Assembly: GCA_015061745.1 (NCBI GenBank)
Contig: SUWB01000030.1
Coordinates: forward strand, 1-41,463
Source of the DNA: Lentisphaerota bacterium
Lineage (GTDB): Bacteria; Verrucomicrobiota; Lentisphaeria; Victivallales; Victivallaceae
Reading direction: 5' to 3'
DNA: 41,463 nucleotides
Within the stretch, counting starts at the first letter, position 1, and each line of letters starts with the position of its first letter. The notes under the pieces are model-generated. The model did not search any database, was not told the origin of the DNA, and saw nothing but the letters and a program-made list of their open reading frames with translations. The translations under genes were made by a program, and so were the position numbers. Positions 539-14,676 of the stretch are shown here, piece by piece.

Positions 539-1444
539 GTGAAATGCACCTGTGACAACAAAGAAATGCCGCTGATCACGATCGGCGTGTCAGCTTATAA
601 TAGAATGGACTATCTGCCCTTTTGTTTGGATTCACTTCTGGCTCAAACCTATCCCAACTGTGAGATCATCGTTGTCGATGACGGCTCAACAGACGGGACT
701 GCGGAAATGATGAAACAGAAATATCCTCAAATCCAATATTTCCGCAAAGAAAACGGCGGGGATGCTTCGGCTAAAAATTACGCCGCCAATATGGCCAAAG
801 GTAAATATATCGTCTTTAATGACAGCGATGACGTGTTTTTTCCTGACACTGTCGAAAGACTTTATAATGCCCTCGATCACAGTGATGAAACAGCGTGCAG
901 TTACGGAACTTATCAGACGATCGATGCAGACGGTAATGAAATGCCGACCAAACGCAAGATGTCTCTTTATCCTTCCGGCAGCATTACGGCCCCTTTGTTG
1001 ACTCACATTATTATCAATAGTTGTGGAACCCTGATGCCGCGGCAGTTTTTCCTTGATTGCGGCGGATTTGATGCCAGACTGCGGGTTTGTCACGATTGGG
1101 CACTTTTCCTTGAAATGTCGGTGCGCTGCCGCTTTTATGCCATTCAGGAACCGGTTTTTAAGAGGCGGCGTCACTCCAGCAATATTTCTGCGGCTTCTTA
1201 TGACAAAGAAAGGATTGTGTCAGACGTCTTTGAGACCTTTCTCAAAGGGCATCCGGAAGTGGAAAACGCCTATCCTGAGATCGTCCGCAAGCGCAGGGGG
1301 GATTTTCACAGAAAACTCTATCGGGAGGCAAAGAAGGAAAAGCGGCATACGGAAGCCTGTTTTCACGCGAAAGAGGCTTTTAAGTTTTCAAAGACGCTCA
1401 AAAATTTCTTTGCAGTTCTTTACAGTTGTCTGCTTTTGAAATAA
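539..1444 (+). CDS. Family 2 glycosyltransferase (GT-A fold)
   Basis: Predicted 301-residue cytoplasmic or membrane-associated glycosyltransferase that would move a sugar from a nucleotide-sugar donor to a glycan or lipid acceptor. The N-terminal GT-A domain (about residues 10-125) carries the family hallmarks: an ITIGVSAYN first strand, a DDGSTDGT donor-binding motif near residue 48 and an NDSDD metal-binding motif near residue 95. A CHDWALFLEMS segment near residue 185 is the usual acceptor-side acidic motif. There is no transmembrane segment. The start is a GTG, supported by GAAGGAT eight bases upstream; an ATG ten codons in would remove only non-conserved residues. The protein ends at the usual family size. 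Donor and acceptor cannot be told from sequence. The neighbouring amidohydrolase gives no hint of a glycan cluster, so this may be an isolated surface-polysaccharide gene. Confidence 0.85.
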   Translation: MKCTCDNKEMPLITIGVSAYNRMDYLPFCLDSLLAQTYPNCEIIVVDDGSTDGTAEMMKQKYPQIQYFRKENGGDASAKNYAANMAKGKYIVFNDSDDVFFPDTVERLYNALDHSDETACSYGTYQTIDADGNEMPTKRKMSLYPSGSITAPLLTHIIINSCGTLMPRQFFLDCGGFDARLRVCHDWALFLEMSVRCRFYAIQEPVFKRRRHSSNISAASYDKERIVSDVFETFLKGHPEVENAYPEIVRKRRGDFHRKLYREAKKEKRHTEACFHAKEAFKFSKTLKNFFAVLYSCLLLK

Positions 1445-1522
1445 TGCCTCCGGCAAGCCATTGAAAAAATGCTGCATTGAAGTGTTCAAGATCACGGAAA
1501 GAAATATTAAGGAAGAAGTATT

Positions 1523-2404
1523 ATGTTTATAGATGTACACGCACACGCTTATCGTAAAGCTCCTGTATACGGAGCAGAAGGAACACGATCCTGGGTCACT
1601 CCTGAAAAATTGATCGAATTTTATGATAAACATCAGATCGAAACCGGCGTTCTTATGCCGTTGCTGGGACCGGAATTTTATCCGCCTCAGCCCAATGAAG
1701 ATATCCTTGAGGCAGCTGAGAGATTTCCGGGCCGTTTTGTGCCTTTCTGCAATGTTCATCCTTATGCGATGAATTACTCTGCTTCAGCTCCCCTTGAAAT
1801 TCTTTTTGAACGGTACAAGAAACTGGGGTTCAAAGGTGTGGGAGAAGTAACTTTCAACCTTTCTTTTTACGATCCCTTTATGCAAAATTTTTTCCGGGCC
1901 GTTGCTCAAAGCGGTTTGCCTCTGACCTTTCACCTGGCTCACCGGCTGGGGGGATGTTACGGCGTTTACGATGAACCGGGGCTGCCCGGACTGGCGGAAA
2001 CGTTGGAACGTTTCCCCAACTTGCGGATGCTGGGCCACAGTCAGACCTTCTGGGCTGAGATCGGTGAGCTTGATATGGTCTATGACCGGGCAGGATATCC
2101 CACGGGAAAAGTCAGAGAAGGGGCCGTTCCCAAATTAATGCGTCGTTTCCCCAATCTTTACGGCGACCTTTCCGCAGGATCGGGGGCCAATGCCTTGATG
2201 CGTGATGAAGAATATGCGGTAAAATTCCTCAATGAATTTCAGGACAGACTGTGTTTCGGTATGGATGTCTGCCTTGAACCGGTTGATGATACACCGGCTC
2301 AGTTGGCTTATTTTCTGATCCGGCTCCGGGATGAGGGCAAGATTTCTGAAGATGTATTCCGGAAAGTTGCCAGAGAAAATATCAAAAAACTTCTGGATCT
2401 GTAA
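1523..2404 (+). CDS. Amidohydrolase-2 family metal-dependent hydrolase
   Basis: Predicted 293-residue TIM-barrel hydrolase of the amidohydrolase-2 (PF04909-like) group, which includes decarboxylases and lactonases acting on small cyclic or aromatic acids. The N-terminal DVHAHAY gives the two metal-binding histidines (residues 6 and 8). Further barrel signatures are FHLAH near residue 136, LGHSQ near 171 and GMDVC near 251, the last carrying the conserved aspartate. The start is supported by an AAGGAAGAAG ribosome-binding site ending about five bases upstream. It lies 78 bp after the glycosyltransferase with no clear promoter or terminator between, so the two may be cotranscribed. The hairpin at 2430 ends the unit. 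The substrate is unknown; family members in uronate or lactone metabolism are possible but the sequence does not decide. Confidence 0.8.
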   Translation: MFIDVHAHAYRKAPVYGAEGTRSWVTPEKLIEFYDKHQIETGVLMPLLGPEFYPPQPNEDILEAAERFPGRFVPFCNVHPYAMNYSASAPLEILFERYKKLGFKGVGEVTFNLSFYDPFMQNFFRAVAQSGLPLTFHLAHRLGGCYGVYDEPGLPGLAETLERFPNLRMLGHSQTFWAEIGELDMVYDRAGYPTGKVREGAVPKLMRRFPNLYGDLSAGSGANALMRDEEYAVKFLNEFQDRLCFGMDVCLEPVDDTPAQLAYFLIRLRDEGKISEDVFRKVARENIKKLLDL

Positions 2405-2429
2405 AATTTATTCAAGATACGGTCAAGAA

Positions 2430-2475
2430 GGCTGTTGCAAAAACTGCAAAGCGGTTTTGCAACAGCCCCATTTTT
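2430..2475 (+). terminator. Rho-independent terminator after the amidohydrolase
   Basis: Perfect 13-bp stem (2430-2442 with 2455-2467) with an 11-12 nt loop and a short T-run from 2471. The stem starts with GGCTGTTGCA, shared with the terminators at 16829 and 37500, so it belongs to a small dispersed family. Confidence 0.85.
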
Positions 2476-2489
2476 ATTGAGCAAAAGGG

Positions 2490-2527
2490 AAAAAAGCTCC
2501 CGGTCCTTCAAGCAAGGAACCGGGAGC
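2490..2527 (-). terminator. Terminator of the giant-paralog operon
   Basis: Read on the minus strand, a 9-bp GC-rich stem (2519-2527 with 2496-2504) is followed by six T residues (2490-2495). It lies 20 bp past the stop codon of the minus-strand gene and faces the plus-strand terminator at 2430, closing two convergent units. Confidence 0.9.
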
Positions 2528-2546
2528 GGCAACAGATGAAACAAAC

Positions 2547-5500
2547 TTACTTTTCCAAAGTCAGAATGCTTGAGAAAGTAAATGCTGCTCCGCCGGGGGC
2601 CAGTGTGATGTGTTTGAAACTGGGTTCAAAGGTTGCTGCACGCTGATTGCCGCCGTCCCAGACGGCAGCTCCGGCGAGGGCGGATTTGGGTTCTATGACC
2701 AGTTTGACTTTATTATTGCCTTGAATGAACCAGACAATATTGTTGTCCATTTGCCGATTGGGGCTAGTTACTTCAAAGAGCTTGCGAGCCTCCTTTTCAA
2801 AAAGTTTGTCAAGGCCTGTGGTATAAAGTCTGCGGTTCATATCACGCTTGAAGTCAAAGTTTTTTCCTTTGTAATACACCCGGGTAAATCCACCATTTGC
2901 CGCCGGGAAGGTCGGCATAAAATTGTACCGGGCACCGAAGGTGATGCTTCTGTCGGATTCGTTGATGACAGTGGTTGTGACAGCTGCCTTACGGAGCTTG
3001 TCTGTGAGAGTGATCGTTTCTCTGATGACCAACCCGCCCACTGCCGGATTGTCCCGGTCAAGAAGGCGGCGTTCCATTGTAACGGCCAGGCCGCCGGAAA
3101 CTTTTTTCTGCTCAGTGACCACGAAGTCACGGGCAAGCTGCAAACTGGGATACCAGAATGCCACGGCTCCGGCACCGCTGGCTTTGAAGCCGTGAATGAC
3201 CGCTTTGCCGTCCACGTGCCACTGGGCAAGACAGCTTGCGGAAGTTTCCAAAAGAGCTGTGTTGCGGCCGGCTGTGAAAGAAAGAGTCTTTTTCACATTG
3301 TCTGCTTTGCAAAGGATTCCTTCATTGGCAATATCAGTCAAACGGGACTCTTTGATTCCATAGGTTTTTTCATACTTATCGTCCAGAACTTTTGCTTTGA
3401 GCAGTGCGGGACGGGCTTCGTTTTGAGCTTTTGACATCTGTTCAAAAGTAAAGAGAGCAAGTTTTTTGTCAGCAGCTTTTTCGGGAGCGATCTCATAAAC
3501 GGCACAACGGACGGCTCCGGCGTGGAGCGTGATACCGTCGGCAAGCTCTTTGCCGGTAAAGGATTTGCCCCCTTTGCCCGTGAAACGGGTGTCAGCATTT
3601 CTGACCGTATAACGGACTTTTGGAGAAAGACCTTTGACTTTGAGGGTGAAAAAGACTTCTCCGTTACGCCAGAAGTTAAAGGCAGACACAATAAGAGTGT
3701 TATTCAATTCATAGGCTGTATGCTGAAGCAAACTGCTGTAACTGTGAGTGCCGAGCATCCGTTCGATAATGGCTGTATCTGCTGCATAAGGGGGCAGGGG
3801 AGTCAGAGTGACTTTTTCGTCGACCCGTTTTCCCTTGAAAACATATTTGTCATAGCGTGCTGCCATATCTGAGGCTGTGGCAAGAGCTTTCCAGTAGCGG
3901 GCATCGTAGCCTTTGGGGAAGGAATAAACAGTTGCTCCTTCCCAGCCGTTGAAAAGAAAACTTAATATTTCAATGGTAAGGGATTCCGGCTGAGTGACCC
4001 AGTCATTGCCCTGCAATCCGTGGGGGAAGGCCAAAAGTTTGATGTGTTTTTTGTAGTCTTTATTGACTGCGGCACGGACATCTTTGGCTTTGAGGAAGGT
4101 ACGCAGATTGTAGGTCTTGCTGTATACAAAAGGCGTATGTGCGTACCAGAAGGCATAAGGGCCCCAAGGGTCGATCCAATCGAAGTTTCCGGCATAATCA
4201 CTGGGGTGGGTTTCCCGGTCAAAACCGTTCTGCCGCCAGGTGGAGCTCATATTATCGACCTGTACGCCGGGAATAAATCCCAGGGATTTTCCTTTGCCGC
4301 CTGTTGCAGCGGTGATGACTTCATTGAGGGTATTCATCAATTTTGCGTGTTCAAGGCTGCGGAACCTGACGGCTTGTTTGTAGTACTTGCGTCCCATAGC
4401 AAGTTCCTGAGGCCACTCTTTTTTCATCTGAGCAAGAGGAACATTTACAAACTTGGCAAAATTTTTGCAGCAGGTGTCGCAGAAACATCCCCGTCCGGCG
4501 TAGTAGTAAGGTTCCCAGTTGGCCCAGAGACCGTCGGCACCTTTCAGTTCACGCTTGATGTAGGGCACAGTTTTATTCATAAAGAAAGGACGCTTTTCAT
4601 ACACTGCCGCAGGACAGGTGGAACGTTCCATTTCATTTTTGTAAATATCGCCGATATAACGATACTTGTCATTTTCAGGACGTCCTTCAGGGGGACCGAC
4701 ACGGAAGCCGTTGGCGATGAAATACAATTCAGGCGTAATGGTCGTGATTCCGATTTTACGCCAGACAGGATAGGCTTTTTTATCGCCGCTGATCAGCCAG
4801 CGGAGTCCGGCTGCATCAAATATTTTTGCATTACGGGCAATATTTTCCTGTGTTTTATAATCCATATAAATGCCGCCGAAATAAATGCCGGGTTTGAAAA
4901 ACAGGGGCTTTTGAGCTTTGAATTTCGGAATGACTGTATAGTTTACATCAACGATATTGGAAACACGCACTCCCTTGTCTTCGACCCAGGCCTGACCTTT
5001 GGCAAGTTTGCTTCCGGGGGCGGCATTGGTGGAAATAAGCATCGCAAGACGCAAATAACCGTCAAAAGAACTCATCTCAGCCGGACGTTTGCGCCAGGGG
5101 GTGAGGTCGATTTTATACTCAAAACCTGTTTGAGTTGCTTTTTGGCTGACCAGTTTGAGAAGTGCCGCTTCGTGAAAGGAGACTTCTTTGGGCATCGTTA
5201 CCACCAGACGGGGGGCTGTCAGTTTTGCATTGGCAGGGGAACCGTTGCGTTTCCAGACATAGGCAATGGTTCCGGGCAGATCTTGTGCCAGGGCAAAAGT
5301 ATGGTCGAGACGTCCCATAGCTGCCAGCTGCAAGGTGATTTTTTCATTGTTTTGGGCAGCTTTCCCGACAGTGACCGCCATATTGCGGAATGAAAGAAAA
5401 CCTGTTCCGTCGATCCGGGGGACCAGTTCAATGGAACGGGTGCCGGGAGGCAGAAGCACCGCATTTTTGTAGTTCTGATATTCGTCAGAAAGAGTGATCT

Positions 5501-6053
5501 TGTACACTTTGAAAAGGGTACTTTTTCCTTTCCACCATTGTCCTGCGACACTGGAATTTCCTGAAAGAAGCAGATAAGCTCCTCCCGGACCGTTGATCTT
5601 GCCCCGGTATTGGAAAGTGATGTTATAAAGCCCCCCTTTATCATCCGGCAGATTGACTGTTTTTCTCCAGCCGCCGGAGGTGCTCTGAATGACTTTCAAA
5701 GGCAGAAAACTTTTCAGTTCTTCCGGCTTGGTGACGGTAAAAACTCCTTCTTTGACACTCCACTTGACCACCTTGCGGGCTCTGGCCCTGCGGGGATCTT
5801 TACCGGGGATCGCGTTGGTGTGCAAATAGCAGTAATTGGGCTGCCAGCGCAGGGGATCTTTGGGGTTTTCTTTGGCTGAATAATCGGCGTTTGTCACCAG
5901 ATTTTCTGCCTGAGAGACCGCTGCTGCAGGCTTGAAAAGTCCGGCGGAAATCTTTTGAAAGTCAAAAGTAACTCCGCCTTTGTCAAGTACGGCAGCCCCC
6001 AGAGAAGCTGTTGCAGCGGCAGCAGCAAGCAGGAAAAGCGTTTTTTTACTCAT
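2547..6053 (-). CDS. Giant secreted glycosidase-like protein, paralog B
   Basis: Predicted 1,168-residue exported protein. A Sec signal peptide covers about residues 1-20 (KK then a Leu/Ala-rich core). About 50-230 looks like a carbohydrate-binding jelly roll (a NITFQYRG strand, aromatic clusters). About 235-385 is a beta-rich linker domain. About 385-740 looks like a TIM-barrel glycosidase domain with W-A-N-W-E-P, E514 being the likely acid/base. Next to it is a Cys cluster, GRGCFCDTCC (C523, C525, C528, C529). E690, E695 and E705 are candidate nucleophiles. A beta domain (about 750-870) and a supersandwich-like C-terminal domain (about 910-1168) follow. The start has AAGGAG at 6064-6069. 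I recognise the architecture as a clan-A-like glycoside hydrolase but cannot assign a family or substrate. It is the last gene of an operon after paralog A and the M55 gene. Confidence 0.7.
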   Translation of the reverse strand: MSKKTLFLLAAAAATASLGAAVLDKGGVTFDFQKISAGLFKPAAAVSQAENLVTNADYSAKENPKDPLRWQPNYCYLHTNAIPGKDPRRARARKVVKWSVKEGVFTVTKPEELKSFLPLKVIQSTSGGWRKTVNLPDDKGGLYNITFQYRGKINGPGGAYLLLSGNSSVAGQWWKGKSTLFKVYKITLSDEYQNYKNAVLLPPGTRSIELVPRIDGTGFLSFRNMAVTVGKAAQNNEKITLQLAAMGRLDHTFALAQDLPGTIAYVWKRNGSPANAKLTAPRLVVTMPKEVSFHEAALLKLVSQKATQTGFEYKIDLTPWRKRPAEMSSFDGYLRLAMLISTNAAPGSKLAKGQAWVEDKGVRVSNIVDVNYTVIPKFKAQKPLFFKPGIYFGGIYMDYKTQENIARNAKIFDAAGLRWLISGDKKAYPVWRKIGITTITPELYFIANGFRVGPPEGRPENDKYRYIGDIYKNEMERSTCPAAVYEKRPFFMNKTVPYIKRELKGADGLWANWEPYYYAGRGCFCDTCCKNFAKFVNVPLAQMKKEWPQELAMGRKYYKQAVRFRSLEHAKLMNTLNEVITAATGGKGKSLGFIPGVQVDNMSSTWRQNGFDRETHPSDYAGNFDWIDPWGPYAFWYAHTPFVYSKTYNLRTFLKAKDVRAAVNKDYKKHIKLLAFPHGLQGNDWVTQPESLTIEILSFLFNGWEGATVYSFPKGYDARYWKALATASDMAARYDKYVFKGKRVDEKVTLTPLPPYAADTAIIERMLGTHSYSSLLQHTAYELNNTLIVSAFNFWRNGEVFFTLKVKGLSPKVRYTVRNADTRFTGKGGKSFTGKELADGITLHAGAVRCAVYEIAPEKAADKKLALFTFEQMSKAQNEARPALLKAKVLDDKYEKTYGIKESRLTDIANEGILCKADNVKKTLSFTAGRNTALLETSASCLAQWHVDGKAVIHGFKASGAGAVAFWYPSLQLARDFVVTEQKKVSGGLAVTMERRLLDRDNPAVGGLVIRETITLTDKLRKAAVTTTVINESDRSITFGARYNFMPTFPAANGGFTRVYYKGKNFDFKRDMNRRLYTTGLDKLFEKEARKLFEVTSPNRQMDNNIVWFIQGNNKVKLVIEPKSALAGAAVWDGGNQRAATFEPSFKHITLAPGGAAFTFSSILTLEK

Positions 6054-6083
6054 ATAATATATACTCCTTGATAGGTTTTATCA

Positions 6084-6914
6084 TCAGGGGAACATAAAGC
6101 CGTCCATATTGACATCGGCTTCTTTGGACCAGGGCAGAGATTTCCGGTTGGCGGGATAATAGTCGTGCATCGCCTGTGAAATGGTGGGGCGTTCAATGGT
6201 TTCTCCCAGAGGAGACAGGGGGGGCACGTGGGTGTCATTGTCCCACAGCCGCAAACGCACCGGGCCGGGAATGACGTACGGTTTGATTTCGTGACGCCGT
6301 GAAATGCCTTTGCGGGCAGCTTCATAGATCAGTTTGCACGCTTTTGAAGGAATAAGACTGCACGCCTGATAACAGGAAAGGGCCTGTTTGGTCTGGACCT
6401 GTTCGATGTTGGGGATCTTTTCTCTGAATTCGGCACAAATCTTGTCATCGCCGGACATCATTACAGAAGGCACCCCCAAGTCACCGGCAACGGCGGCGGC
6501 CATTGTGCCTTCACTCAAATAAAAATCTCCGTCGTTGACCTCCCAGCGGGAGTGAGGAATAATGGCATTGGGAGTCGCTCCCATTGCGTGCATACCGATC
6601 TGGAGCATACAGTCAAAGGAACTGTCAAGAATGGGCAGCCAGATGCCGCAGGAACCGTTGCGGCCGTGGATGATCTGGCATCTTTCATCCAACTCCTCAA
6701 AAAGAATATTGTATCCGGAACCGTGATTGTCGTTGACATAAACTTCGTCGGCACCTTCGTCAAAGGCGGCTTTGACGGCGGCGTTGACTTCAGCGGTCAG
6801 AAGTTTGTACATCCGGTAACGGTGCTGGACACCTTCAACACCGGTGTTGGCACGGTGTTCGCGGAAACAGAATCCGGCAATGCCTTCAATATCGGTCTGA
6901 ATATAAATTTTCAT
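6084..6914 (-). CDS. dppA: M55 family D-aminopeptidase (DppA-like)
   Basis: Predicted 276-residue cytoplasmic zinc peptidase of family M55, whose known members release N-terminal D-amino acids such as D-Ala from short peptides. The N-terminus MKIYIQTDIEG holds the conserved Asp8 and Glu10 metal ligands. Further family signatures are VNDNHGSGYN, IGMHAMGA with its histidine, and the SEG motif before a GDLG-type strand. I place the start at 6914, not at an in-frame ATG ten codons upstream: AAAGGATC sits at the right distance, and the longer form would overlap the upstream gene. There is no signal peptide. It starts 19 bp after paralog A and ends 30 bp before paralog B, so all three are almost certainly one transcript. 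The symbol is by family resemblance; no dipeptide permease genes adjoin it. Confidence 0.85.
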   Translation of the reverse strand: MKIYIQTDIEGIAGFCFREHRANTGVEGVQHRYRMYKLLTAEVNAAVKAAFDEGADEVYVNDNHGSGYNILFEELDERCQIIHGRNGSCGIWLPILDSSFDCMLQIGMHAMGATPNAIIPHSRWEVNDGDFYLSEGTMAAAVAGDLGVPSVMMSGDDKICAEFREKIPNIEQVQTKQALSCYQACSLIPSKACKLIYEAARKGISRRHEIKPYVIPGPVRLRLWDNDTHVPPLSPLGETIERPTISQAMHDYYPANRKSLPWSKEADVNMDGFMFP

Positions 6915-6933
6915 AAGAAACGATCCTTTATGT

Positions 6934-9900
6934 TTATTTTTCAATGGTCATTGCGGAAGAAATGGTGAAACTCTTTCCGCCGGGACCCAAAGTCAGGAAT
7001 TTGAAACAGGGTTCAAAAGTTCCTGCTGCCTGCCGGCCGCTGTCCCACACGGCGGCACCGGCGAAAAAGGCTGAAGGAGCCAGAGTCATCTTGACTTTGA
7101 GCCCGGGAGCTGCGAAAAAGACAGGAGTTGCATCAATGGGACGGTTGGGCGTTTTGACAGAAAAGAGCTTGCGGACATTTGTTTCATATTCTTTGTCAAT
7201 ACCTGTGGTATACAACGCTCTGGCAAAATCCCGTTTGAATTCCACTGTTTTCCCTTTGGCTGTAATCCGGGTGAAACCGCCATTGGTTCCCGGGGCGGCG
7301 GGAATCAGGTTGTAACGGACGCCGAAACTGATATCCCGGTCAGAACTGTTTACAAGCTGGGTGGTGACGGTGATCTTGTTGAGTTTGTCTGTGATCTTGA
7401 AACTCTGTCTGATGAGGAGCCCCGCCAGCTGGCTGCGGTCACGGTCGAGCATACGTTTTTCGCCGATGATCTCAAGGCCGCCGGGGATTTTTTTCTGTTC
7501 GATAACGGAAAATCCGTTTTTGATTTGAGTGGAAGGCTCCCAGAAAGCCACGCAGCCGAAACCGCTCATCTTGTTGCCGTTGATAACCGCTTTTTTACCA
7601 CTGTTCCAGTAGTTGACGCAGAAAGAAGGAATGTAAAGTTCTGCTTTGTTGATGCCGCAGGTCAATATAAAACGGTTGTTTTTTCTGTCAGCTTTGCAAG
7701 AGATACCGGCATTGGAAATATCTTCCAATTTGGAGTCTTTGATACCGTAGATTTTTTCATACTGCTCATCTGCGGCTTTTGCTTTGAGCAGTGCGGGACG
7801 GGCTGCTTTTTGAGCCTTCAACATTTGTTCGGCAGTAAAGAGAGCAAGTTTTTTGTCGGCAGCTTTTTCGGGAGCGATCTCATAAACGGCACAGCGGACG
7901 GCTCCGGCGTGGAGTGTGATACCGTCGGCAAGCTCTTTGCCGGTAAAGGATTTCCCCCCTTTGCCGGTGAAGCGGGTGTCAGCATTTCTGACTGTATAAC
8001 GGACTTTGGGAGAAAGACCTTTGACCTTGAGGGTGAAAAAGAGTTCTCCGTCCCGCCAGAAGTTGAATGCCGCCACGATCAGCGTGCCGTTGAGTTCATA
8101 GGCATTGTACTGGAGCATTTCAAAGTAGGAGTGAGTTCCAAGCAGAGCTTCGAGGACAGCTGTTTTGGCAGCATAGGGGGCCTGAGGAGTCAGGGAAACT
8201 CTTTCATCAGCCTTTTTTCCCTTGAACACATATTTGTCATAACGGGCAGCCACATTGGAAGCGTCGGCAAAGGATTTCCAGAAACGGGCATCATAGCCTT
8301 TGGGGAAGGCATAAACAGTGGCTCCTTCCCAACCGTTGAACATAAAACTTAAGAGTTCAATGGCAATGGATTCCGGCTGAGTGACCCAGTCCTGAAGCTG
8401 CATCCCGTGGGGGAACGCAAGGAGTTTGATATGCTTTTTATAGTCTTTATTGACGGCAGCACGGACATCTTTGGCCTTGAGGTAGGTACGCAAGTTGAAG
8501 CTTTTGTTGTAAACGTAAGGAGCGTGAGCGTTCCAGAAGGCGTAGGGCCCCCAGGGATCGATCCAGTCAAATTTACCGGCATAGTCAATGGGGTGGGTTT
8601 CTTTGTCGAAACCGTTGAGACGCCAGGTGGAACTCATATTGTCGACCTGCACGCCGGGGATAAAGCCCAGGGATTTTCCTTTGCCGCCTGTGGCAGCTGT
8701 GACAGCTTCATTGACGGTGTGCATCAGTTTTGCGTGTTCAAGGCTGCGGAATTTGACCGCCTGCTTGTGGTATTTGCGGCCCACAGCAAGTTCCTGGGGC
8801 CACTCTTTTTTCATCTGTTCAAGAGGAACATTCACAAACTTGGCAAAGTTTTTGCGGCAGGTGTCGCAGAAACAGCCCCGTCCGGCATAACCGTAAGGCT
8901 CCCAGTTGGCCCAGAGACCGTCAGCTCCCTGAAGATTTTTTGTGATATAGGGCACGGTGCTGTTAAGGTAATAGGGACGTTTTTCGTAGACCGCTGCGGG
9001 ACAGGTGGAACGCTGCATTTCCAAAAGATTGTGAGTGCCGATAGCACGGTATTTGTCCGCTTCGGGACGTCCTTCGGGCAGGCCCACCCGGAAGCCGTTG
9101 GAAACGTAGAAAAGCTCAGGCGTGATGACTTTCACCCCTGCCTTGCGCCAGACAGGGTAGGCAGATTTCTGGCTGGCAACGATCCAGCGGACACCGGCGG
9201 CATCGAACATTTGAGCACAACGTTCAATATTGGGGAGAGTGCTGTAAGCCATATAAACACCGCCGAAATAGATCCCCGGCAGATAGTGCTGAGGTTTGGC
9301 TGCCTTGAATTTGGGGATGACCATAAAATTCACGGGAACGATATTGGAAAGACGTTGTCCGTTTTCCTCCACCCAGGCTTTGCCCTGAGCCAGTTTTGTT
9401 CCGGGAGCAGCCTTGGTGGAAAGTAAAGCTGAGTGACGCAAGTAATTGTCAAAATCTTCCATTTGAGCCGGGCGTCCCCGTCTGCCTCTCAGGTCGATAC
9501 GGTATTCTACACTTTTTGCTCCTTCCCGTTTGGAAAGAAGCTTCAGAAAAGCTGCTTCGTGGAATGTGATCTCTTTGGGCAGTTCCATAACCAGTTGAGG
9601 GCTGGTCAGTTTAGCTTCTGCTTTGCTGCCGTTGCGTTTCCAGATAAAAGCGATGGTGCCGGGCAAATCTTGGGCCAGAGCAAAAGTGTTGTCCAGACGG
9701 CCCATTGGAGAAAGCTGCAGAGTCAATTTTTCGCTGGTGCTCCGGGGAGCAGCGGCGGTGACAGCAGGTTTTCTGAAATCCAGCCGGCCTACGCCGTCGA
9801 TTCTGTAAACGATTTGCAGGGATTTGACACCTTTGGGGAGCAGGATCGCATTTTGATAATTCTGCCACTCGTTGGAAAGTCTAATGCTGTAAACCTTGAA

Positions 9901-10437
9901 AAAAGGAGATTTTGCCTTCCACCATTTTCCTGCAGGTTCAGTAAAGCCCTGAACGATGAGGCAGGCTCCGCCGGGGCCGTCGAGAGTGCCTTTGTACTGA
10001 AATGAAACATTGTAAAGTCCCCCTTTGTCGTCCGGCAGATTGACCGCTTTACGCCAGGCTCCGGAGGTGGAACGGACAACGGTAAGGGGCAGGATCTTTT
10101 TCAGTTCCGCAGGTTTTACAACGGTGAAAACGCCGTCTTTAACACTCCACTTGACCATTTTTCGCACCTGAGCTCGCCGGGGATCTTTGCCGGAGATCTC
10201 TTTGGTGTGCAGGTAACAGTAGTTGTCCTGCCAGGCAAGGGGATCTTTGGGGGAATCCTTGAAATTGTAATCGGCATTGGTGACGAGATTGTCCTTTTGC
10301 GGAATCGCTTTGGCGGGCTTGAAAAGTTCATCTGAACTTTTTTTCAGATCAAAGGTGACTCCGCCTTTGTCCAGTCCGGCTGCTGCCAGAGAAAGGAGCG
10401 TCAGAAAGGCGGCGGCGAAAAAGATTTTACGATGCAT
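6934..10437 (-). CDS. Giant secreted glycosidase-like protein, paralog A
   Basis: Predicted 1,167-residue exported protein, a full-length paralog of the gene at 2547-6053 with the same domain order. It has a signal peptide (about 1-20), a jelly-roll-like domain, a beta linker, a TIM-barrel-like domain with W-A-N-W-E-P (E513) followed by GRGCFCDTC, and a C-terminal supersandwich-like domain. Identity is high across the barrel and patchy in the C-terminal third. One 69-residue stretch (7834-8040) is identical in protein. The fourth Cys of paralog B's cluster is Arg here, so C-x-C-x2-C is the shared core. It is the first gene of the operon, with a TTGACA promoter 82-110 bp upstream, a leader of about 70 bases and an AGGG ribosome site. 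The function is inferred as a polysaccharide- or glycoconjugate-degrading enzyme; family unknown. Confidence 0.7.
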   Translation of the reverse strand: MHRKIFFAAAFLTLLSLAAAGLDKGGVTFDLKKSSDELFKPAKAIPQKDNLVTNADYNFKDSPKDPLAWQDNYCYLHTKEISGKDPRRAQVRKMVKWSVKDGVFTVVKPAELKKILPLTVVRSTSGAWRKAVNLPDDKGGLYNVSFQYKGTLDGPGGACLIVQGFTEPAGKWWKAKSPFFKVYSIRLSNEWQNYQNAILLPKGVKSLQIVYRIDGVGRLDFRKPAVTAAAPRSTSEKLTLQLSPMGRLDNTFALAQDLPGTIAFIWKRNGSKAEAKLTSPQLVMELPKEITFHEAAFLKLLSKREGAKSVEYRIDLRGRRGRPAQMEDFDNYLRHSALLSTKAAPGTKLAQGKAWVEENGQRLSNIVPVNFMVIPKFKAAKPQHYLPGIYFGGVYMAYSTLPNIERCAQMFDAAGVRWIVASQKSAYPVWRKAGVKVITPELFYVSNGFRVGLPEGRPEADKYRAIGTHNLLEMQRSTCPAAVYEKRPYYLNSTVPYITKNLQGADGLWANWEPYGYAGRGCFCDTCRKNFAKFVNVPLEQMKKEWPQELAVGRKYHKQAVKFRSLEHAKLMHTVNEAVTAATGGKGKSLGFIPGVQVDNMSSTWRLNGFDKETHPIDYAGKFDWIDPWGPYAFWNAHAPYVYNKSFNLRTYLKAKDVRAAVNKDYKKHIKLLAFPHGMQLQDWVTQPESIAIELLSFMFNGWEGATVYAFPKGYDARFWKSFADASNVAARYDKYVFKGKKADERVSLTPQAPYAAKTAVLEALLGTHSYFEMLQYNAYELNGTLIVAAFNFWRDGELFFTLKVKGLSPKVRYTVRNADTRFTGKGGKSFTGKELADGITLHAGAVRCAVYEIAPEKAADKKLALFTAEQMLKAQKAARPALLKAKAADEQYEKIYGIKDSKLEDISNAGISCKADRKNNRFILTCGINKAELYIPSFCVNYWNSGKKAVINGNKMSGFGCVAFWEPSTQIKNGFSVIEQKKIPGGLEIIGEKRMLDRDRSQLAGLLIRQSFKITDKLNKITVTTQLVNSSDRDISFGVRYNLIPAAPGTNGGFTRITAKGKTVEFKRDFARALYTTGIDKEYETNVRKLFSVKTPNRPIDATPVFFAAPGLKVKMTLAPSAFFAGAAVWDSGRQAAGTFEPCFKFLTLGPGGKSFTISSAMTIEK

Positions 10438-10518
10438 AAGTTTTCCCTTTTTATTTTATGTTTGGCAATGGTGCATAACATATAATGAAAAAAACGGCAG
10501 CGGAACTACCGCAGACTA

Positions 10519-13158: not shown

Positions 13159-14676
13159 ATGATTGGAACTTTGCTTATAAAAAATGTCTGGATCGCTGAC
13201 GGGCTTGGAACGCCTTTGCGCAAGGGAGGCTGTCTGCTGGACTCCAAAGGCGGCATTGCCGCTGTGGAAAAGGATTTTTCCGCCTGTGCCGCAGAAAAAT
13301 GTATTGACGGCGCAGGATTGATACTTGCACCCGGATTTATTGATGCCCACGGACACTCTGATATGTCTGCTTTGAGTGCTCCTGAGTGCTTCAGCAAGAT
13401 CTCTCAAGGAGTCACCACTGAAATTTGCGGCAATTGCGGTCTTTCGGCTTTTCCGGTGACAAACTGTAATAAAGAGCATTTGCAGCTTCTTTATGAAAAT
13501 TACGGCAAAGAGATCCGCTGGGAAAGCTGCAGCGCATATCTGGATGAAGTGAATCGGGCTGATTGTGCTCTTTCTCTTGTGCCTTTGTGCGGACACAATA
13601 CATTGCGTGCGGCTGTCAGAGGATACGAAGAAGGGGCGTGTTCTCAAAAAGAACTTGAAGAAATGGCTTTTCTTCTTGACCGGGAATTGACCTCCGGGGC
13701 TGCCGGTGTTTCCTTTGGTTTGCTCTATTCTCCGGGGATTTTTGCTTCTCCCGGAGAAATCGTGCACATAATGAAAGTTGCTGCCAGGCATAACAGGATT
13801 TGTGCCGCCCATTTGCGGAGCGAAGGAGATGAACTGCTTGAGAGTGCCGCTGAAATGATTGAACTTTCTTTTGAGTCCGGGCTGAAACATTTTCATTTCA
13901 GCCATTTGAAAACCGCCGGAAAAGAAAATTTCAACAAACTTGATGAGCTGCTGGAACTTTTTGACGAAGCACGGCACAAAGGCATTGAAATCACCTGTGA
14001 CCGTTATCCCTATACGGAATCAATGACCCAGCTCAGTGTGGCTCTGCCGGGGGCGTGGAAAAAAATGGACGATGAAAGTTTGAAGAAAAAACTGCAGTCG
14101 ACCGAAGAAAAACTGCTCCTTATAGCGGATTTGCGTAAGGCAAAGACAACTGATTACTGGGAACGCTGCCGTCTGGTCAACTGTACCCACCCCCGCTTTG
14201 CTTCATTCAGAGGAAAGAAAATCAGCGAGATTCCCGGTGATACCCCGGAGAATGTGACTGAAATCCTTGCTTTTGATCCTGTCAACTGTCAGGCAGCCTT
14301 CAGCGTGATGAGTGAAGAAAATATGAAACGTATTCTTGCTCTGCCTTTTTGTGTGGCAGGCAGTGACGGGAACGCTCTGCCTTCAGATGCCCGTTTCGGA
14401 CATTCTCATCCGAGAGCTTTCGGAGCTGTTGCCAGGTTTATGCGTCTGGGACTGGATATGGGGATCCCCATTGAGGCGTGTGTCAGCAAAGTCTCAGGCA
14501 AAAGTGCCGCCATATTTTCTCTTGATGACCGGGGTGTCATTGCCCCCGGGAAGAGGGGGGATATGGTTCTTTTTGATCCGGATTCTATTGATTGCAGGGC
14601 GGATTTTCTTTCGCCTGAACGGTGTGCCGAAGGAATCAGAATGGTCATAAAAAATGGCCGTGTTGTTTACAACTGA
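13159..14676 (+). CDS. N-acyl-D-amino-acid deacylase (D-aminoacylase)
   Basis: Predicted 505-residue amidohydrolase-superfamily enzyme that removes the acyl group from N-acyl-D-amino acids. The composite beta domain (residues 1-60 and the C-terminus, ending in VIKNGRVVYN) flanks a metal-dependent barrel. Visible ligands are GFIDAHGHSD (two His), EICGNCG (the family's Cys ligand), HLRSEGDELLE (His), FHFSHLK (His) and AGSDGNAL (the catalytic Asp). The length matches D-aminoacylases. The ribosome site is GGGGAGA. It leads a three-gene operon with two acyltransferases, 17 bp before the GNAT gene, and diverges from pepD. Acylation and deacylation enzymes side by side suggest a cycle for modified amino acids, possibly D-residues from peptidoglycan. 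The specific acyl-amino acid is not evident. Confidence 0.85.
   Translation: MIGTLLIKNVWIADGLGTPLRKGGCLLDSKGGIAAVEKDFSACAAEKCIDGAGLILAPGFIDAHGHSDMSALSAPECFSKISQGVTTEICGNCGLSAFPVTNCNKEHLQLLYENYGKEIRWESCSAYLDEVNRADCALSLVPLCGHNTLRAAVRGYEEGACSQKELEEMAFLLDRELTSGAAGVSFGLLYSPGIFASPGEIVHIMKVAARHNRICAAHLRSEGDELLESAAEMIELSFESGLKHFHFSHLKTAGKENFNKLDELLELFDEARHKGIEITCDRYPYTESMTQLSVALPGAWKKMDDESLKKKLQSTEEKLLLIADLRKAKTTDYWERCRLVNCTHPRFASFRGKKISEIPGDTPENVTEILAFDPVNCQAAFSVMSEENMKRILALPFCVAGSDGNALPSDARFGHSHPRAFGAVARFMRLGLDMGIPIEACVSKVSGKSAAIFSLDDRGVIAPGKRGDMVLFDPDSIDCRADFLSPERCAEGIRMVIKNGRVVYN

Follow-up and report, generated by a model that had tools for sequence, protein, structure and literature searches.

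DppA of Bacillus subtilis, from which the M55 enzymes are best known, is a D-specific decameric enzyme (PMC2651629). Among the large DUF4838 proteins, one is labelled GH163 (PMC9870897), and a GH163 of Bacteroides thetaiotaomicron is described as acting on complex N-glycans (PMC10154615). Here we compare these systems with a locus on contig SUWB01000030.1 of a Lentisphaerota bacterium (assembly GCA_015061745.1), whose whole 41,463 nt are called the window. In this locus, a gene for an M55 metallopeptidase lies between the genes of two large paralogous proteins, P1 and P2. An initial annotation, made from the DNA sequence alone, had read it as a single operon in which two exported, glycosidase-like paralogs enclose a D-aminopeptidase, and had proposed peptidoglycan as a possible substrate. 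We found P beside M55 in several relatives and tentatively, at somewhat less than an even chance, read the locus as a tandem-duplicated unit of an M55 enzyme and a secreted glycosidase that would serve the use of external glycans.

The P1-M55-P2 locus

The three genes make up one operon and run in the order P1, M55, P2 on the minus strand. They and the parts of P1 discussed below are as follows (loci other than the window carry our L numbers).

6934-10437, minus strand: P1, 1167 aa, from the open reading frame (ORF) call; apparently secreted (leader seen by eye), of an uncharacterised family, putative glycoside hydrolase
6084-6914, minus strand: M55 metallopeptidase (D-aminopeptidase family), 276 aa with an ATG start, from PF04951 and the alignment to DppA (PDB 1hi9)
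2547-6053, minus strand: P2, paralog of P1, 1168 aa, 68% identical, from the ORF call and alignment
9742-10347, minus strand: N-terminal domain of P1, residues 31-232, CBM4/9-like, from hhalign to the C-terminal part of DUF4838
8188-9306, minus strand: core of P1, residues 378-750, a presumed (beta/alpha)-barrel (clan-A-like in the initial annotation) holding most of the invariant columns
8896-8907, minus strand: motif N511-W512-E513-P514 with the presumed catalytic acid E513, from conservation in 38 rows

The layout given in the initial annotation, two paralogs of about 1,167 residues around an M55 gene, is what we found: the alignment of P1 with P2 spans 1165 residues at 68% identity and is free of gaps, 19 bp separate the P1 stop from the M55 ATG, and 30 bp separate the M55 stop from the P2 ATG. 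The ORF list places the M55 start at an upstream TTG (6944), and the ATG start gives 276 aa. A purine-rich, ribosome-site-like run was seen by eye in the 20 bases preceding each start.

The M55 product scored 187 bits against PF04951 (curated cut-off 25), confirming the identity first assigned to it. Alignment with DppA (1hi9, E 1e-22) brought D8, E10, H60, H104 and H115 into register, while the equivalent of DppA E133 fits solely with an alignment gap shifted by hand; we take D8, E10, H60, H104, E133 and H115 to be the zinc ligands and catalytic His of DppA. Against the DppA equivalog NF058634, the product reached 120.9 bits, the cut-off being 430. Judged by these scores, the window M55 is a genuine PF04951 member and not a DppA ortholog. 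No signal peptide was seen in it by eye. Two tandem M55 genes 21 bp apart occur elsewhere in the same genome (L056, 6703-8292), and a similar pair occurs in L059.

P1 and P2 each begin with a signal-peptide-like leader (judged by eye, no predictor run) and are presumably exported, as had been supposed. Pfam and NCBIfam scans of both proteins gave nothing above cut-off, including any glycoside hydrolase family and the lysozyme, transglycosylase, amidase and NlpC-type families, and PDB sequence and profile searches with P1/P2, the family as a whole, its core and one short relative returned chance-like matches only; none of these profile and PDB searches linked the pair to a family of known substrate, and a link to one with an unrelated substrate would have spoken against the initial annotation. 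The sole Pfam trace of a glycosidase was a sub-threshold match to the GH36 C-terminal domain PF16874 at residues ~797-842 (P2 19 bits, P1 14.8, cut-off 27), which was present in 3 of the 23 family members scanned, and the Melibiase catalytic domain had no match in P1 or P2. In a single hhalign comparison, residues 31-232 matched the C-terminal part of DUF4838 proteins (probability 88%, E 3e-6), and this part of an L063 protein matches PF02018 (CBM_4_9). Relatedness of the core to GH36-, GH20- or GH123-like neighbours or to DUF4838 was considered and dropped, as hhalign of the core gave nothing convincing.

The family carries the motifs NWEP, CxCxxC and YDxR. N511, W512, E513, C522, C524, C527, D716 and R718 are invariant in all 38 core sequences; the P of NWEP is kept in 35 rows, and E689 in 37, being missing from the short relative. 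E513, D716, R718 and the CxCxxC cysteines are unchanged even in a relative of 18% identity, a pattern that fits an active site. These motifs, together with the CBM4/9-like front domain, suggest a glycosidase, and we consider such an activity of P1 and P2 probable on the strength of architecture and conservation. Between three P1 orthologs and three P2 orthologs, there are 46 fixed differences, several of which adjoin the presumed active site: G516Y follows NWEP, and L681G and Q682N precede P688-E689. Because these differences adjoin the motifs, P1 and P2 are suggested to differ in specificity. Estimates of dN/dS against the relatives L037 and L038 were 0.05-0.08 for M55, 0.12 for P1 and 0.17 for P2, which indicates purifying selection, although the values are rough because dS exceeds 1 throughout.

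The window's genome holds nine members of the P family. With that genome counted, the family occurs in 6 of 40 relatives, 28 of 148 genomes of the class and 16 of 288 genomes of the phylum, two of these last outside the class. A contig scan gave 52 P loci, many from herbivore guts, all labelled Lentisphaeria, Lentisphaerae or subgroups except two Kiritimatiellae (L103, L114); genes in the loci were called by a composition-scored caller. One locus encodes an 893-aa protein (L097, 3755-6436) of a short-form branch, with the P core (hhalign 99.8%) but nothing that matches the front and end domains of P. Stand-alone genes of ~212-218 aa, matching the N-terminal domain of P, lie directly upstream of P in L088 (9920-10558), L090 (9303-9959) and L093 (1145-1801).

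Recurrence and history of the P-M55 pairing

We counted pairing over 58 P genes in 53 loci (52 fetched and the window), with 100 flanking genes examined. M55 is the immediate neighbour of 12 of the 58, two of which are the window's own. Paired P genes occur in 3 of 26 clusters against 0.10-0.15 expected (Poisson p 1.4e-4 to 5.4e-4), the expectation being our assumption of random M55 placement at 5-8 M55 genes per 2700; leaving out the window's cluster, 2 of 25 are paired (p 0.004 to 0.01). The pairing was found in five genomes besides the window's, namely those from sheep colon (L076), yak (L077, L079) and roe deer (L078), SI.A25 (L102, L088) and SI.B33 (L090), and so it recurs among related genomes, a point on which the initial annotation had staked its view. 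M55 begins ~4 bp past P in L102, by the conserved ATG, and ~134 bp past P on the same strand in L090, and is convergent in L088. In L173, a window-type M55 lies upstream of P with two genes between. The latter locus (1412-8314, one strand) reads M55, GntR-like regulator, prepilin-like gene (both named by eye) and P, and resembles a small sugar-use locus.

Gene order in the closest relatives bears on how the locus arose. The sheep-colon contig reads M55-P1-M55-P2-GH28. Two yak contigs, one with M55-P up to the contig end and the other with P-M55-P-GH28 from the contig end, agree with the sheep order, and roe deer and the window have P1-M55-P2. Of 73 called M55 genes, 68 entered a quick tree with SH-aLRT support; the remainder, duplicates arising from overlapping fetches, were removed according to locus. 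The six M55 genes of the sheep, yak, roe deer and window genomes cluster (support 100), with the sheep and yak upstream copies on one side (97) and the copies between paralogs on the other (97). The L102 M55 falls inside the same 20-row clade (99), and those of L088 and L090 lie far away. Because a relative shows M55-P-M55-P and the tree separates the two sets of copies, the simplest history is a tandem duplication of an M55-P unit, after which the window and roe-deer lines lost the first M55. The P1-M55-P2 order of the initial annotation is thus real, but it is no sandwich arrangement in its own right: the simplest view of the "enclosed" M55 is as a relic of the duplicated unit. The pairing in L088 and L090 looks like a separate recruitment of a distant M55 clade.

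The unit sits after an ARMT1-FtsW block in the sheep and roe-deer genomes. The window's genome keeps this block, with no P, M55 or GH28 match in the 15 kb round it, and carries the unit elsewhere with its order unchanged. Such conservation of order between two separate locations speaks for a functional link.

P1 and P2 also appear to have exchanged sequence.

7828-8007, minus strand: P1 side of a tract (codons 811-870) in which recent gene conversion is likely
3441-3620, minus strand: P2 side of the same tract

Over codons 811-870, nucleotide identity between the two genes is 93-96%, and third positions agree at 87%; before codon 511 and after codon 900, the third-position figure is 33-63%. 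The sheep and roe-deer P1/P2 pairs differ across these codons, which were likely converted recently. The core at 511-750 is more alike between P1 and P2 than the remainder, which may come from constraint or from older conversion.

Proposed pathway and competing explanations

In the pathway that we tentatively propose, exported P1 and P2 would bind carbohydrate through the CBM4/9-like front domain, and the barrel-type core would cut glycosidic bonds, with E513 as the general acid and E689 or D716 as its partner. The two proteins would divide the work, the released glycan fragments would be imported, and the cytoplasmic zinc enzyme M55 would strip off an amino acid or peptide held by an amide bond, in the way that DppA acts on D-amino-terminal peptides. 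Gene linkage suggests that M55 may act on the P1/P2 product in a joint pathway, a step that we hold to be possible yet rather uncertain. In favour of the proposal, we count the pairing statistics, the two M55 clades, the order kept at a different place and the GH28 and GH36-like neighbours, together with the CBM4/9-like domain, invariant E513, D716 and R718, low dN/dS and the M55 metal ligands. As to the neighbours, P2 of the sheep, yak and roe-deer genomes is followed directly by a GH28 gene (1.4e-16 in L037, which is the contig of L076), a DUF4838 gene is nearby in the sheep and roe deer loci, and P, M55 and a GH36-like gene are consecutive in L102. In L080, a DUF4838 gene directly precedes P on a contig with no M55.

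Several observations weigh against this proposal. The core has no Pfam, NCBIfam or PDB sequence relative that indicates a glycosidase. Of all P genes counted, 46 of 58 stand without an adjacent M55, and M55 is therefore not required for the general work of the P family. If the pairings of the window and L102 go back to a single ancestral one, the number of independent pairings falls to two, and one of these (L088/L090) has M55 on the opposite strand in one of its two genomes. The window's assembly (91.6% complete) is without a GH28 ortholog, the best match being 32%. DUF4838 is greatly expanded in the window's 3.1-Mb genome (43 matches), and because it is so common its closeness says little. 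Finally, M55 did not prove to be a general partner of carbohydrate-active enzymes (CAZymes) in Lentisphaeria (6 of 20 against 2 of 20 controls, Fisher p 0.12, not significant).

The last comparison used 30 M55 clusters at 65% identity, 20 of which had a same-strand upstream gene within 150 bp; 5 of 60 M55-centred loci (L075, L128, L145, L151, L167) were excluded for want of an M55 call. The CAZyme-like genes directly upstream of M55 were P (window), DUF4838 (L062), GH36 (L068), GH78 (L129), SASA esterase (L140) and PL8 (L149). L062 is the second member of its cluster, used since the first had no close upstream gene. The count is 5 of 19 (p 0.18) without the window and 4 of 18 (p 0.28) without the window and L062. 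As controls we took the first 20 of 36 shuffled genes, each from a different M55-centred locus and 3 or more positions away from M55; coming from such loci, they are not independent of the gene clusters under test.

It is conceivable, though doubtful, that P1 and P2 are secreted glycosidases and M55 a peptide scavenger expressed along with them, which targets some other nutrient (such as peptides from the diet or from microbes) and was kept with them for shared conditions. The many P genes without M55 would suit such a scavenger, and same-clade M55 genes also adjoin genes of other kinds: GDPD (L162), Gfo/Idh and an enolase-superfamily gene (L161), and a lipoprotein-like gene (L166, by eye). 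In L042, moreover, PGA_cap and an M20 peptidase precede P, the peptidase in a position similar to that of M55. Yet a scavenger on an unrelated nutrient sits poorly with the tandem co-duplication of M55 with P, with the order preserved at a different place and with a second M55 clade beside another P cluster.

P1 and P2 might instead be large, non-cutting surface or binding proteins whose core is decayed or different, with M55 unrelated. The missing sequence relative of known function and the loss of E689 in the short relative agree with this, but the full conservation of E513, D716, R718 and the cysteines, which extends to the relative of 18% identity, fits an active site, and we regard such a non-cutting role as improbable. 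A bolder form of our proposal is unlikely as well, namely a new Lentisphaeria glycoside hydrolase family in a fixed two-compartment relay, with M55 not a scavenger but an amidase on amino acids amide-linked to sugars or on D-amino-acid glycopeptides.

The substrate named in the initial annotation gained little support. What points to peptidoglycan as a possible substrate is the M55 family name, that of D-aminopeptidases, and the D-amino-acid-type genes nearby: a D-aminoacylase-family gene and an M20 dipeptidase gene in the window, to which may be added an M19 dipeptidase gene after M55 in L063 and the B. subtilis dppA gene, which sits with murein-peptide genes. It is nevertheless very unlikely that P1 and P2 degrade peptidoglycan outside the cell and that M55 completes the breakdown of D-amino-acid peptides after import, given that P1 and P2 match no lysozyme, transglycosylase, amidase or NlpC-type family, that the genes neighbouring the unit in relatives are of the GH28, DUF4838 and (in one genome) GH36-like kinds, and that the dipeptidase gene lies behind a terminator-like hairpin and is unmatched throughout the 52 P loci fetched.

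Operon signals, neighbouring genes and known systems

Signals around the three genes were sought by consensus and folding calls.

10547-10519, minus strand: candidate sigma-70 promoter TTGACA-17-TATCTT, 10/12 consensus matches, top score shared with two other sites
10664-10631, minus strand: terminator-like hairpin behind the upstream dipeptidase gene, z -5.9
10494-10512, minus strand: short hairpin and T run in the P1 leader, just past the candidate -10 box, from the consensus scan; possible attenuator, function putative
About 2527-2496, minus strand: terminator hairpin and T run after P2, -24.5 kcal/mol, z -3.6

Candidate sites were thus found for the one promoter and one terminator of the single operon first described. 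The promoter is weak by itself, the region holding 11 promoter-like sites against a shuffle mean of 6.5. The hairpin after P2 was matched by 2 of 200 shuffles and is absent from the consensus terminator scan, the total of which (9 against a shuffle mean of 12.9) gives no regional excess. The M20 dipeptidase gene and a sugar-epimerase-like gene lie upstream of P1 in the same direction, and the hairpin at 10664-10631 would separate the dipeptidase transcript from P1.

Divergent from this pair is the D-aminoacylase-family gene (13159-14676, plus strand; PDB 1m7j, E 4e-61), the product of which also matches N-acyl-D-glutamate deacylase and carbohydrate de-N-acetylase. Amidohydrolase-2 genes recur beside P or M55 genes (window 1523-2404; L110 8354-9229; L148; L155), the L110 copy being 81% identical to that of the window. 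Other P genes have a GntR-type regulator (L040) or prepilin-type genes (L051, L052) nearby, and comparable genes, identified by eye, lie in L171-L173. A partnership of P with NagA was rejected; the P neighbours in L043 and L044 (NagA, PgsA, methyltransferase, PurT-like) look like housekeeping genes.

P is a candidate new glycoside hydrolase family, large, multi-copy and with unchanging motifs, in a little-studied gut phylum. Its pairing with M55 may represent a pathway that handles a sugar polymer in two steps, and the M55 enzymes gain a testable link to glycan use. In the titles and abstract starts of the open-access papers searched, we found no link of M55 or D-aminopeptidases to glycoside hydrolases or polysaccharide utilization loci.

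Among known systems, the DUF4838 proteins resemble P in being large, in sharing genomes and sometimes loci with it, and in having a CBM4/9-like domain and a CxCxxC motif. In contrast, P1, P2 and the 21 other members scanned have no PF16126 match, the front domain alone aligns when whole lengths are compared, and core-to-core hhalign gave a probability of 5% over 47 columns round CxCxxC. The GH36/Melibiase alpha-galactosidases have the weak PF16874 trace in common with P1 and P2, which are without a match to the catalytic domain. DppA and the window M55 have in common PF04951, the N-terminal D-x-E-G motif and the metal residues; the window enzyme differs from DppA in its last 59 residues, which fall outside the alignment, and in its partner genes, which encode large, apparently secreted proteins.

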